From the NCBI GenBank assembly GCA_009691785.1, contig SIAM01000015.1:1-46915 (forward strand): a stretch of DNA of 46,915 bases, in the 5' to 3' direction. Below the pieces are notes generated by a model. The model was not told the DNA's origin and ran no database searches. It saw only the letters and a list, made by a program, of their open reading frames with translations. Shown piece after piece: positions 22,055-31,655 of this stretch. The stretch's first letter is position 1; each line of letters begins with the position of its first letter. The translations under genes and the position numbers were made by a program. The DNA comes from Phycisphaerales bacterium (GTDB lineage: Bacteria; Planctomycetota; Phycisphaerae; Phycisphaerales; SM1A02).

Positions 22055-22978
22055 TCACTCAAGTGTTCGCAAGGCGAGACCGTGTTCAGCAAGACGCTCA
22101 TGAATTTCAACCAAGCTTGTGGCGCCAAAATTCTTCACGCCCATCAACTCGGCTTCGGTTCGCGCGGCCAGGTCGCCCACAGTTTGAATGCCTAGCAATT
22201 GCAAGGCTTTTCGACTGCGAATTCCCAAATTCAGCGTGCCAACGGTGAGACCCAACACGCCATCGGCAACGGTGCCCTTCATCTTCTCAAGAACTTCGCC
22301 GCGCACCTTGTCATAGTGGCCGCGATCAAGTTGTTGACCCAAACGCAGACCGCGTGCGGTGAGCATTTGCTTGATCTCTACCAAACTGGTCTCGCCAAAA
22401 TTTTTGTACGAAAGCAACTCAGCCTCGCCAATGCGAAGCAAATCGCCAAGCGTGCGAATGTTCATCTTCTTCAAACAATTGCGCGCGCGGATGGAAAGCT
22501 CAAACTCCGCGACTGGCAATTCAAACATGGCTTCTTCGCGGCCCTTCAAGCGCGCAAGTTCCTCGTCGTACAACATGTTCTTGCTGGCTTGCACATCGCG
22601 GATGAACAACTTGGCGCGCGGATGATTTGGATTGGCCTCAAGCACCTTCAGGATCAACTTGCTGGCGCGCGTGAATTGCGCCGCGTCCTCCAATAAAACT
22701 GAAAGATTTAGAAACGCATTGACCGGAGGATTTGGCATGCGCGTGCACTCCTCGTAACTGCGCATGGCGTCATCGTCGTAACCCAAGTGGTCTTGCATGC
22801 GCGCCACATTGAACAGCGTGGTGGCGGTGCGATTGGCCTTGACGGCGTTCTTGTAGGCCTCTAGCGCCTCAAAGAATTTGGCGTCGGCTTCGAAAGCCTT
22901 GGCCTGCTTCATAAAAACTTGTGAAGCGGCGGGATCGGTGGTGGCGGCGAGAACGGTATCAAGGCCTGTGTTTAACAT
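22055..22978 (-). CDS. TPR protein with two tandem RNA polymerase alpha-CTD domains
   Basis: Protein of 307 aa. Residues about 20-130 are TPR-like helical repeats (EALEAYKNAVKANRTATTLF, FTRASKLILKVLEANPNHPRA). Two alpha-subunit C-terminal domains follow: residues about 153-212 (ELSIRARNCLKKMNIRTLGD ... NFGETSLVEI) and 242-305 (LNLGIRSRKALQLLGIQTVGD ... NFGATSLVEI). Each has the helix-hairpin-helix core; the Arg that contacts DNA in E. coli alpha (R265, in VRSANCLK) is kept in both, and the nearby Asn is kept only in the first. There is no alpha N-terminal domain, so it is not RpoA. It may bind UP-element-like DNA or activators and connect them to a TPR partner; this is inference. GGAG ribosome-binding site upstream. 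Confidence 0.9.
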   Translation of the reverse strand: MLNTGLDTVLAATTDPAASQVFMKQAKAFEADAKFFEALEAYKNAVKANRTATTLFNVARMQDHLGYDDDAMRSYEECTRMPNPPVNAFLNLSVLLEDAAQFTRASKLILKVLEANPNHPRAKLFIRDVQASKNMLYDEELARLKGREEAMFELPVAEFELSIRARNCLKKMNIRTLGDLLRIGEAELLSYKNFGETSLVEIKQMLTARGLRLGQQLDRGHYDKVRGEVLEKMKGTVADGVLGLTVGTLNLGIRSRKALQLLGIQTVGDLAARTEAELMGVKNFGATSLVEIHERLAEHGLALRTLE

Positions 22979-24464: not shown

Positions 24465-26120
24465 TTAGATTTCAATCAGCACCATGTCGCCCGCAACCTT
24501 GGCAGGTTTTGGCGGCGCATGAAGATCCGTGGTGAATCGCTCCAAGCCAGCCACGCGCGCCATGTCGACGCGGGTGGTGGCGGCGTCAAATGCCTTGGAC
24601 TTCACGCCCGCGCGCGCGGCCTGCAGGTCCAGCGCGATTTGGCTTTCGCCCTTGGCAAAATCAACCGTGGAAATGGCTCGTTCAAAGCCTTGCAGACGAT
24701 TTTTAGCGTTCTCAAAGGTGCCGGCTTTTTCAGTCCATGTCGCGCCAGGCAACACAACTTCCGCCTTGTCCGTCAACGCGCTTGGCATGGTGTCAATCAC
24801 GATCAACTTCACATTGCTCAGCGCGCTGTGCAGCGACGGCAGAACCCATTCGCTTGGATAATTTCCGGTGACCACCGCGGCGGCAATGGCCTTGGACTTT
24901 GCGGCGCTTTCAAAACTGGCGGCGTCATGAACCTTGCGACCCTTGGCAAGCGCCTCCAACACGCGGCGAACTCCGCGCGCGTTGGGCGCCTTCTCGGCGT
25001 ACATGGTGAAGCCACCTGGGAATGTTTTGTCTTGACCTAAAACAGGAATTGGACCAACGGCAAGTTCCGCTTGCGCATCAATGGAAAGAATTGTTGTTGC
25101 CAACAAGTACGCGTCCTCGCACGTCAACATTGGACTGACCATTAAACCAAGGCGGCCACCATTCTTGGCGGCGCTTTCAAGCGTGTTCATGGTGGCGCTC
25201 AACGCGTCGCTCCATGCGACGGCGGCGTCATCGGCTACAAAGGCGGCGCGACCCTTGATCGCGGGCAACTTCAAACGGTTCTCGCTGTGCACAAACTTCC
25301 AGCCGTAGCGAACCTCGTCGGTAATCCACCACTTATTTACTTCAATGTTGTCGCGCGGCTTCACGCGGTAGATCACGCCTTCATTGTGCTCCACACTGAT
25401 GTTGTCGCCGCTTGCGGTAATGCCATCAATGCTTGGGGTTTTCTTCAAGAACCACACGCGTTGTTGAAACAGAAAATCTTTGTCAAGCAGCGCGCCCACG
25501 GGGCAAATATCAACCACATTGCCGCTGAGTTCATTGTCCAGCGCGATGCCGGGGAAAACATCAATCTCTTCACTGCTGCCGCGGCCATCCACAAGCAACT
25601 CGCCGGTGCCTGTGACCTCGCGCGTAAAGCGAACACAACGCGTGCACATGATGCAACGATCGCTGTACAAAAGAACGTGCGGGCCAACATCTTTCTTGGG
25701 GCGCTTGTTCTTGGCCTCCTTGAAGCGGCTCTCGCCACGGCCATATTGATAACTGTAATCCTGCAAATGGCACTCGCCCGCTTGGTCGCACACTGGGCAA
25801 TCCACCGGATGATTGATGAGCAAAAATTCCATGATGGCTTTTTGATTGCCCACCGCTTTAGGCGAATCGGTGTACACCACTTGGCCTTCAACCGCCGGCG
25901 TTTGGCACGTTGGAAATAATTTGTTGCCCGCGCGCAATGCGCCAGTCTTTGGATCGGGGCTCCACACTTCCGCCAAACAAATGCGGCAGTTGGCCACGAT
26001 GGAAAGTCCGGGGTGGTAGCAGTAATGCGGAATCTCCTCGTCGTGTCGAAGCGCCGCTTGCAAAATGGTTTCGCCCTTTTCAAAGAAGCATGTCTTGCCG
26101 TTAATGGTGAGCTGTGGCAT
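24465..26120 (-). CDS. nuoG: NADH-quinone oxidoreductase subunit G (NuoG), short form
   Basis: Iron-sulfur subunit of complex I carrying electrons from NADH toward quinone. The N-terminal third is complete: the ferredoxin-like 2Fe-2S Cys set (CYHPGLSIVANCRICLAEV and a later CQTPA), the His-ligated cluster motif HPVDCPVCDQAGEC, and the 4Fe-4S set CIMCTRC with a distant DICPVGAL. The extra N7 cluster cysteines after WFLKKTPS are absent. At 551 aa the molybdopterin-oxidoreductase-like part is much shorter than in E. coli NuoG (about 900 aa), as in other short forms. No other nuo gene is adjacent, so it is separated from the rest of complex I. A candidate attenuator and a possible TAGACT promoter lie upstream. 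Confidence 0.93.
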   Translation of the reverse strand: MPQLTINGKTCFFEKGETILQAALRHDEEIPHYCYHPGLSIVANCRICLAEVWSPDPKTGALRAGNKLFPTCQTPAVEGQVVYTDSPKAVGNQKAIMEFLLINHPVDCPVCDQAGECHLQDYSYQYGRGESRFKEAKNKRPKKDVGPHVLLYSDRCIMCTRCVRFTREVTGTGELLVDGRGSSEEIDVFPGIALDNELSGNVVDICPVGALLDKDFLFQQRVWFLKKTPSIDGITASGDNISVEHNEGVIYRVKPRDNIEVNKWWITDEVRYGWKFVHSENRLKLPAIKGRAAFVADDAAVAWSDALSATMNTLESAAKNGGRLGLMVSPMLTCEDAYLLATTILSIDAQAELAVGPIPVLGQDKTFPGGFTMYAEKAPNARGVRRVLEALAKGRKVHDAASFESAAKSKAIAAAVVTGNYPSEWVLPSLHSALSNVKLIVIDTMPSALTDKAEVVLPGATWTEKAGTFENAKNRLQGFERAISTVDFAKGESQIALDLQAARAGVKSKAFDAATTRVDMARVAGLERFTTDLHAPPKPAKVAGDMVLIEI

Positions 26121-26153
26121 ATGTTGAATTTCTGTGGGACTTGCGGAGGTGAG

Positions 26154-26159
26154 AGTCTA
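26154..26159 (-). promoter_or_regulatory. Possible local -10 box of nuoG
   Basis: TAGACT on the minus strand, 33 nt before the nuoG ATG and just after the U-tract of the upstream terminator. If real, nuoG would have its own promoter and the upstream structured RNA could be a separate transcript rather than a leader. Confidence 0.3.
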
Positions 26160-26165
26160 GTAAAC

Positions 26166-26202
26166 AAAAAAAAACGCGTCCGCGGGTTTAGCCACGGATA
26201 CG
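26166..26202 (-). terminator. Rho-independent terminator ahead of nuoG
   Basis: On the minus strand UCCGUGG (26198-26192) pairs with CCGCGGA (26185-26179) around a 6-nt loop, extended outward by three more pairs after one mismatch (26202-26200 with 26177-26175), and is followed directly by nine U (26174-26166). It ends 45 nt before the nuoG start codon. Confidence 0.85.
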
Positions 26203-26501
26203 TCGACGGGGGAGTGACTAGTTGCAGTTTTCTGAAGCCAAGTTGCCTGCGAATGGCTTGCATTGTCGGGCTAGCGACCAATGCGGCGCCAAACCATGGG
26301 ACAACTCAAACCTGCTCATGGCGTTTCCTTTCCCCTCAAATCCCTGCAATATTTGTTCCCAATTCCCACAATCGGCTCGCGCCAGACATGGCGATCGCCC
26401 TCTCTTTTCCCTCACCTCAATGTCGGATTCACTTGTTGGTGTTTCCAAGGACATATCCGCAGAAGAGCTGTAAGTGGTTGCATGCACGGCAACTAAAATT
26501 A
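26166..26501 (-). ncRNA. Candidate structured leader/attenuator RNA or sRNA upstream of nuoG
   Basis: No convincing gene fills 26121-26728. On the minus strand, 26462-26450 can pair over 13 contiguous bases (three G-U) with 26204-26192, closing an approximately 245-nt domain. The 3' strand of this helix contains the whole 5' arm of the terminator at 26166-26202, so the two are mutually exclusive. Inside the domain are a CGCCA/UGGCG hairpin with a 4-nt loop (26380-26393), a 9-bp hairpin with one bulged G (26260-26284) and an AAGCCA/UGGCUU stem (26235-26259). A possible -10 TAATTT lies at 26496-26501. I recognise no known riboswitch, 6S, SRP, RNase P or tmRNA core motif. Confidence 0.5.
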
Positions 26502-26540
26502 GTTATTTGTAGTTATCCGATCTTGCCCATGAAATGATTA

Positions 26541-26722
26541 GTTTGAAAGCCCAGTTCGAAAGCCCAGTTTGAAAGCCCAGTTCGAAAGCCCAGTTCGAAA
26601 GCCCAGTTCGAAAGCCCAGTTCGAAAGCCCAGTTCGAAAGCCCAGTTCGAAAGCCCAGTTTGACAGTCCAGTTTGACAGTCCAGTTTGAAAGCCCAGTTT
26701 GAAAGCCCAGTTTGAAAGTTTT
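26541..26722. repeat. 13-bp tandem repeat array, 13 full copies plus a degenerate copy
   Basis: Unit GTTCGAAAGCCCA or GTTTGAAAGCCCA on the plus strand repeats head to tail without spacers from 26541 to 26709; copies 10 and 11 read GTTTGACAGTCCA, and 26710-26722 is a decayed fourteenth copy. Copies 2 and 4-9 contain the palindrome TTCGAA. It starts 7 bp past the stop of the gene at 26729 and ends about 40 bp before the proposed nuoG leader. Because 13 is not a multiple of 3, the open frame that crosses it repeats in three phases and is unlikely to be coding. Confidence 0.95.
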
Positions 26723-26728
26723 CAAAGC

Positions 26729-27397
26729 CTAATTTTTGGCGGGCGATGTTTCCAGTTGCATGCGGATTTCTCCGGGCAACACTTCAATATCTTTCACCTG
26801 CACGCGGCGGCCGTCGGCAAGGCGAAACTGGGAACTGTTCAGCGATTCAAAGATGTCCGTGGGGACAAATGTGGAAATAATAAATGTTGGAATGGGCATG
26901 CAACCAATGGCAGCGGATGTGGGCGCAACATTCAATGTTTCAACAGTGCTGTTGTCTTTGGTGGTGGATTGCATCTTTGGCGTGAACTCAAGCACTCCCA
27001 CCGACCAGGAATTTTCCGCCGCTATGTCCATGTGATCCTCGCGGCAGCGCACTTGCACTTTACGGTTGCATTCTTGATCGCTTTTGCCTTGATGCTCCAG
27101 CCACTTGGGCAGGCGCGAGGTCAGCCATTCGTTCATGTCTTTTTCTGGAATACGAATAGACCACGCGGAATCTTGCCCGCGCACCTTGGTGAATTGCGCG
27201 GCAAGACCTTGCTCAAAATCCGCGCTGCGGCTTTCCATTTGCGCGTCGCTGGTGAATTGATGGTTGAACCATGAAGGCGAGCGCTTTGACAATACAAAAA
27301 CCGTCGCAAGAAAGCACAACAGCAAGGTGAATTTTACAATCCATCTGCGTCGACGAAGCGGCTTTGGAAATACTTCACTCTCGATCATGTTTGTCAT
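26729..27397 (-). CDS. Unknown single-span membrane-anchored protein
   Basis: Protein of 222 aa that I do not recognise. An Arg-rich N-terminus (PKPLRRRRW) precedes one membrane segment (about residues 21-36), giving a likely N-in topology with a periplasmic domain. The domain contains IRIPEKDMNEWLTSRLPKWL, a pattern seen in unassigned envelope proteins that fold on lipid-binding-type scaffolds, and ends with an IEVLPGEIRMQLE strand pair; the comparison is only an impression. It follows the FabF-like gene by 19 bp, so it is probably in the same transcript as the ketosynthase pair. The 13-bp repeat array lies immediately 3'. Confidence 0.7.
   Translation of the reverse strand: MTNMIESEVFPKPLRRRRWIVKFTLLLCFLATVFVLSKRSPSWFNHQFTSDAQMESRSADFEQGLAAQFTKVRGQDSAWSIRIPEKDMNEWLTSRLPKWLEHQGKSDQECNRKVQVRCREDHMDIAAENSWSVGVLEFTPKMQSTTKDNSTVETLNVAPTSAAIGCMPIPTFIISTFVPTDIFESLNSSQFRLADGRRVQVKDIEVLPGEIRMQLETSPAKN

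Positions 27398-31571: not shown

Positions 31572-31655
<84 letters not shown>

Follow-up and report, generated by a model that had tools for sequence, protein, structure and literature searches.

One general kind of bacterial small RNA has its own promoter and an intrinsic terminator. The element that we describe here lies on the minus strand upstream of nuoG in a contig of a Phycisphaerales bacterium (the window, meaning the whole stretch of 46,915 nucleotides that was analysed), and it resembles such RNAs in possessing a promoter-like element, a predicted structured body and an intrinsic terminator, and in containing no ORF. It differs from them in being confined to part of one genus and in that it appears to share ancestry with an mRNA leader.

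Among the structured RNAs already described, the nuoG RNA motif (RF01748) of Enterobacteriales, an entry in the list of PMC2864571, is also a candidate structured RNA and takes its name from its association with nuoG. However, it gave no match in the window or in eight homologous loci at permissive thresholds, the phylum is another one, and here an independent promoter of nuoG is predicted after the terminator. The Rhodopirellula-1 motif is tabulated in PMC2864571 for Proteobacteria and Planctomycetes without an Rfam accession; the likeness, which concerns its table entry alone, is that it too is a candidate motif from Planctomycetes. 6S RNA (RF00013) has a long irregular hairpin, as has the predicted 3' domain of our unit, but no RF00013 match was found in the homologous loci. 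It should be noted that, at the threshold of the tool, RF00013 matched none of the 16 genomes of the genus, in which 6S RNA may be missing or diverged, and 14 of 61 relatives, a comparison in which strict filters can lose weak matches. None of the ten 6S loci inspected among those 14 relatives had the neighbours seen in the window, and identity with 6S RNA was discarded.

A further system becomes relevant through the sister species. Passages of PMC1569441 describe the PEP-CTERM signal as Pro-Glu-Pro, a transmembrane stretch and a basic cluster, and report that most PEP-CTERM genes form units of one gene, preceded by long non-coding regions and regulatory motifs; the upstream motif given there is a sigma-54 site, in Proteobacteria. 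The sister species of our organism have a comparably long leader, while the clade of the window lacks the ORF.

The first-pass annotation had recognised no known riboswitch core at this place, and the Rfam comparison agrees: at the gathering threshold, over the whole window, nothing matched at the RNA unit, and at permissive thresholds (positions 26050-26800 and loci L002-L009, L084 and L134-L137) only chance-level matches appeared, namely isrK at E 3.4, IRES_Bip at E 3.7, and mir-9215 and ROSE_3 at E 0.19, which we rejected. No description of this element was found in the literature searched. From the comparisons reported below, it is most likely a small RNA specific to the genus and related by descent to the mRNA leader of an exported protein.

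Terminator, long-range helix and predicted promoters upstream of nuoG

The features of the locus are the following, the 222-aa gene and nuoG bordering what we call the slot.

24465-26120, minus strand: nuoG, 551 aa, with the Pfam NuoG iron-sulphur and molybdopterin domains above cut-off
26154-26159, minus strand: -10-like box TAGACT of nuoG, invariant in 9/9 genus sequences, with TANNNT upstream in 27/28 family loci
26166-26174, minus strand: T9 tract of the terminator, T8 plus one A in L005-L007
26173-26204, minus strand: intrinsic terminator hairpin, whose single A.C mismatch is confined to the window
26166-26450, minus strand: putative non-coding RNA of about 280 nt, its 5' end placed from the promoter-like element
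26205-26373, minus strand: predicted long irregular 3' hairpin domain of the consensus fold, pairs mostly invariant
26375-26398, minus strand: hairpin H2, two pairs with changes on both sides, paired in 8/8 sequences
26398-26418, minus strand: purine-rich tract between H1 and H2, seen in the alignment; sister-species leaders have a similar tract
26425-26446, minus strand: hairpin H1 (GGA AA CAC CAACAA GUG AA UCC), six invariant pairs
26450-26462, minus strand: 5' arm of the helix proposed earlier, overlapping the -10-like box of the promoter-like element and probably outside the RNA
26455-26481, minus strand: promoter-like element GCAACC-N16-CGGAT (GCAACC at 26481-26476, CGGAT at 26459-26455), putative promoter of the unit
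26729-27397, minus strand: 222-aa protein of unknown family without a Pfam match, upstream border of the slot, with homologues in the same place in sister species

The first-pass annotation read this region as a candidate ON-type attenuator or riboswitch, in which a long-range helix sequesters an arm of the terminator and lets transcription continue into nuoG. The sequence features on which it built are present. Positions 26462-26450 of the minus strand are complementary to 26204-26192 over 13 bases, three of them G-U; the 3' strand of this helix doubles as the 5' arm of a terminator hairpin that has a single A.C mismatch. T9 comes next, at 26174-26166, and from the end of T9 to the ATG of nuoG (26120) there are 45 nt. 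In a test made after the helix had been picked out, helices of at least 13 bases arose anywhere in the 327-nt sequence in 24 of 300 dinucleotide shuffles, and those spanning at least 200 nt in 2 of 300. The 13-base pairing is thus somewhat unusual compared with shuffles, although the test came after its selection. The fold of the whole 336-nt region has no excess stability (z -0.55, with 31 of 100 shuffles as stable).

In the window the helix is complete and, at -18.1 kcal/mol, stronger than the terminator (-16.6), and L005-L007 keep 12 of its 13 pairs; both points favour a switch. The relatives argue against it. The terminator arm starts with GACGCG in all seven aligned full-length homologues (L003 having one further change) and with GACGTA in the window; G014 (L009), an eighth homologue that stands outside these counts of seven, also has GACGCG. 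The stem is unbroken in 7/7 full-length relatives, at -21.1 to -24.0 kcal/mol, while the helix falls to between -3.1 and -13.8 kcal/mol, so that the terminator is far stronger than the helix in every relative measured. Where the window keeps 13 of 13 helix pairs, L002 to L008 keep 11, 11, 10, 12, 12, 12 and 9, respectively. None of the 13 pairs between 26450-26462 and 26192-26204 shows a compensatory change on both sides, 500 of 500 shuffles do at least as well, and one pair is broken in seven of eight sequences. Since the relatives combine a stronger terminator with a weaker helix, the complete competing helix is, as far as the aligned homologues indicate, a private change of the window and not a property of the locus.

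The call of the terminator itself rests on conservation, with a perfect stem and a T tract in 7/7 full-length relatives, and not on the generic scan, since the latter reported terminator-like sites at the expected rate (8 in 5 kb versus 8.9 expected).

The two promoter-like elements bear on the same question. GCAACC, which served as the search anchor, is followed by CGRA after exactly 16 nt in 13/13 genus sequences, and the spacers between the two boxes are unlike in the two clades described below. Its downstream box, CGGAT at 26459-26455, falls inside the 5' arm of the helix; should this be a -10 box, the arm would lie mostly or wholly outside the RNA, and 26462-26450 would probably not be transcribed as part of it. 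The generic promoter scan did not report GCAACC-N16-CGGAT. Its AAC-containing -35 presumably resembles those of ECF-type sigma factors. A regulon sharing the motif was considered and rejected, as the exact motif at spacing 16 does not recur elsewhere in the own genome (1 of 19 matches, spacings 12-20).

Concerning nuoG, the box TAGACT at 26159-26154, downstream of the terminator, is invariant in 9/9 genus sequences. The gene was found in 55 of 61 family genomes and 30 loci were taken, of which 28 were scanned, leaving out the own locus and one with too little upstream sequence. Of these 28, 27 have TANNNT in the 100 nt preceding nuoG, where 300 shuffles gave a mean of 8.3 (sd 2.1) and at most 14; the more restrictive TANN[AC]T is seen in 24, versus a shuffle mean of 4.7. 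As the box recurs in 27/28 loci and lies after the terminator, transcription of nuoG most likely starts downstream of the terminator, from its own promoter; and because the RNA would end before that promoter, it is probably no switch for nuoG. The consensus fold of the full-length sequences, moreover, does not need the long-range helix. Taking together the far stronger terminator of the relatives, the missing double-sided changes, the overlap of the 5' arm with the promoter-like box and the nuoG box after the terminator, we regard the ON-type attenuator or riboswitch as very unlikely. What the first-pass annotation had offered as its second choice, a free small RNA with TAGACT driving nuoG, fits the comparative evidence and stands as a proposal made from sequence.

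For this group of genomes, TANNNT upstream of nuoG (loci L083-L111) can serve as a -10 consensus. The window's purine tract at 26398-26418 (GAGGTGAG) has 8 bases of complementarity with the beginning of the nuoG leader at 26147-26155 (CTCACCTC); a pairing between the tract and the nuoG 5' end was dropped as a candidate, being absent by eye from L006 and L008.

Distribution, conservation and predicted structure of the putative RNA

A DNA search of 61 genomes recovered the region in nine, the own genome included, all belonging to one genus; in eight the match spans almost all of the region, and in G014 it falls into two pieces. Of 181 family genomes, 32 gave matches at E 0.1 or better; those in the same nine are strong, and those in the 23 other genomes cover only 18-44 nt (E 0.002-0.1) and were treated as noise. 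A covariance model, R1, built from 26465-26330, detected the same nine of the 181 family genomes, in one of 45 genera. Applied to 400 genomes of the order, it retrieved eight from the genus; three more, at E 0.016-0.030, were taken as noise, as were short matches of 19-29 nt found when relatives of the RNA or of the leader were looked for outside the genus. The RNA was therefore found in 9 of the 16 genus genomes, and no other genome searched gave a credible match. The slot could be read in 13 of the 16, because the contig of G009 ends at nuoG and G013 and G015 have no nuoG match; nine of these genomes are RNA-type and four are ORF-type, having an ORF in the same place.

The aligned sequences delimit a conserved separate unit of about 280 nt with a sharp 5' edge near 26525. 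Across eight sequences, mean identity is 0.31 and 0.27 in two intervals above 26526, 0.59 at 26530-26511, and rises to 0.99 at 26441-26422. In all 21 pairs among seven genomes the RNA region is more conserved (identity 0.80-0.98) than the 4-fold sites of nuoG (0.59-0.89). Between the 222-aa gene and the unit the window carries a tandem array (26540-26718; 13-bp unit, 13.8 copies, 95% matches), and no similar stretch is visible in the aligned relatives.

A short translated ORF (around ETPTSESDIEVRKKRGRSP) instead of an RNA was also considered, and a frame contained in the 89-aa frame of the window does stay open over 28-39 codons in L002-L007. However, no start, stop or frame is shared across the RNA homologues: the possible start codons are ATG, ATA or TTG, the ends differ, and in L002-L007 a stop cuts the 89-aa frame to no more than 39 codons. 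In L008 no frame of 25 codons is listed in that region, and L009 has a stop in mid-frame. The variable columns divide by phase into 8, 8 and 4 (columns 30-109 of alignment A1), a weak skew that is readable either way, and the third-base changes include those of the H2 pairs. We therefore hold translation to be highly improbable.

The consensus fold of eight sequences comprises 92 pairs, five with a change on both sides, and 96.2% of the alignment cells pair under it. None of 500 shuffles, which ignore relatedness, reaches its paired percentage, its number of doubly changed pairs or its covariation score, although 377 of 500 match its number of pair types; six slid versions of the fold give at most three doubly changed pairs. 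With 60 column-shuffled alignments as reference, the fold energy of the alignment has a z of -5.0. The covariation term amounts to only -0.07, and most pairs never vary in these eight related sequences.

Within the consensus fold the clearest structural support would be provided by H2, where pair 94/105 occurs as GC, AU and GU and pair 96/103 as CG and UA, all eight sequences being paired; L009 breaks three of the five inner pairs of H2. Of the other three doubly changed pairs, two are unpaired in three of eight sequences. The six pairs of H1 are invariant in 8/8 and 9/9 sequences, and invariance alone is no proof of pairing. L009, from G014, lacks about 85 nt of the 3' domain, and its own predicted fold still keeps a stem at the base of that domain.

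After seeing the sequence, we also considered that the RNA could be a sponge for CsrA, its GGA-containing purine stretches binding the protein. The CsrA family was found in 16/16 genomes of the genus. In six of eight sequences AGGA or GGGA exceeds most shuffles (7 to 35 of 300 as high). GGA itself, on the other hand, is enriched in none of the eight (72 to 182 of 300 shuffles as high), AGGA/GGGA is not enriched in L003 (142 of 300) or L008 (72), and a hypothesis picked in this manner counts for less; we give it little credence.

A PEP-CTERM-like ORF in the same slot of the sister species

In the slot of the four ORF-type genomes, flanked by the 222-aa gene and nuoG, there is an ORF of 228 aa (G001), 232 (G004), 106 (G007) and 232 (G011). 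The proteins end in VPxPSA...FLRRRR(T/V), and from this C-terminal pattern we name them PEP-CTERM-like; they differ from the PEP-CTERM signal in having G or S in place of Glu. Pfam and NCBIfam name neither of the two proteins tested of the four, DUF7137 remaining below cut-off at E 0.002. The ORF of G007 (L084:2249-2566), with 106 aa, is without about 120 middle residues of the other three and keeps their start and C-terminal end.

After the ORF, all four have the series that the RNA-type genomes also show: CACTCCCCGT, GACGC, a terminator-like hairpin and TAGACT. Concerning the leader before the ORF, those of G004 and G011 (L135, L136) were compared with five of the nine RNA-type sequences: of the ten comparisons, seven had 0 of 300 shuffles scoring as high, and the other three had 2, 6 and 9. 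The leader of G001 gave 4-12 of 300, with its best match near the start codon and not in the collinear place in one pair; it is collinearly alike that of G011 in one alignment, made without shuffle control. The leader of G007 gave 3 of 300 once and otherwise 47-176 of 300, and is not clearly similar; on the whole, the likeness of the L137 and L084 leaders to the RNA is weak. R1 does not detect the sister leaders (best E 0.66). These comparisons suggest that the RNA unit shares with the mRNA of the sister species its slot, its promoter-like element, part of the leader and the terminator context.

The protein itself seems to have no counterpart in the RNA-type genomes. A profile of the sister proteins found no match in eight of the nine and, in G014, one weak match (E 9.9e-4) about 177 kb away; no ORF follows the leader in any RNA-type genome. 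Remnants of the ORF within the RNA were searched for and rejected both at the DNA level (32 comparisons, the lowest with 1 of 200 shuffles as high and the rest with at least 6) and at the protein level (at least 26 of 100 shuffles as high in 8/8). A tree was built from the first 200 nuoG codons of eight of the nine RNA-type genomes (G003 left out), the four ORF-type genomes and five outgroups; in it the two types form sister groups, with support of 100/98 and 100/100 for DNA and 94/87 and 100/99 for protein. As they are sister clades, the ORF may equally have been gained.

A possible reading of these data is that what we see is a decaying remnant of the transcription unit of a PEP-CTERM-like gene, whose promoter, leader and terminator persist with no present function. 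The presence of the ORF in four sister genomes, shortened to 106 aa in one, would agree with decay, as would the missing strong match to the sister protein in RNA-type genomes and an RNA about 85 nt shorter in G014. A functionless relic is nevertheless hard to reconcile with conservation above that of 4-fold sites in 21/21 pairs, with the compensatory pairs of H2 and with the lack of any detectable ORF remnant in the RNA, and a gain of the ORF is equally compatible with sister clades. We consider this explanation unlikely.

A probable separate unit and its possible origin

We judge it probable, on these comparative grounds, that the locus forms an independent transcription unit giving rise to a structured non-coding RNA, having its own promoter and terminator, insulating nuoG and sharing ancestry with the mRNA leader of the sister species. 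Transcription, the exact ends, the use of the promoter and a role in trans are all inferred from the comparative facts. The RNA would start at the promoter marked by GCAACC-N16-CGGAT and fold into two 5' hairpins around the purine-rich tract, followed by the 3' hairpin domain. It would end at the strong intrinsic terminator, which would both finish the RNA and insulate nuoG, with no switching involved, nuoG starting from its own TAGACT promoter just downstream. In the clade of the window, where there is no ORF, the RNA alone would be kept under selection and might act in trans as a small RNA.

As to its origin, we put forward more tentatively a two-way scenario: the mRNA of an exported PEP-CTERM-like protein may have lost its frame in one clade, selection keeping the promoter, leader and terminator as an independent regulatory RNA, or else an RNA gene may have gained an ORF in the sister clade. 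If this is true, a change between mRNA and small RNA, in one direction or the other, has been caught within one genus.

In place of a switch call that is probably false, the analysis offers a unit that can be tested: a predicted structured RNA of uncultured planctomycetes that has no match in Rfam and whose sister-species counterpart is predicted to lead into the gene of an exported protein. If the RNA works, the 13 readable genomes would offer a direct comparison of the exchange between mRNA and small RNA at one locus.

Two other features of the window may be recorded. An ORF of 307 aa lies at 22055-22978; by eye, we take it to be repeat-containing, with two stretches like the C-terminal part of RNA polymerase alpha. 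The only tRNA gene of the window, for tRNA-Leu, is located at 31572-31655 on the minus strand.
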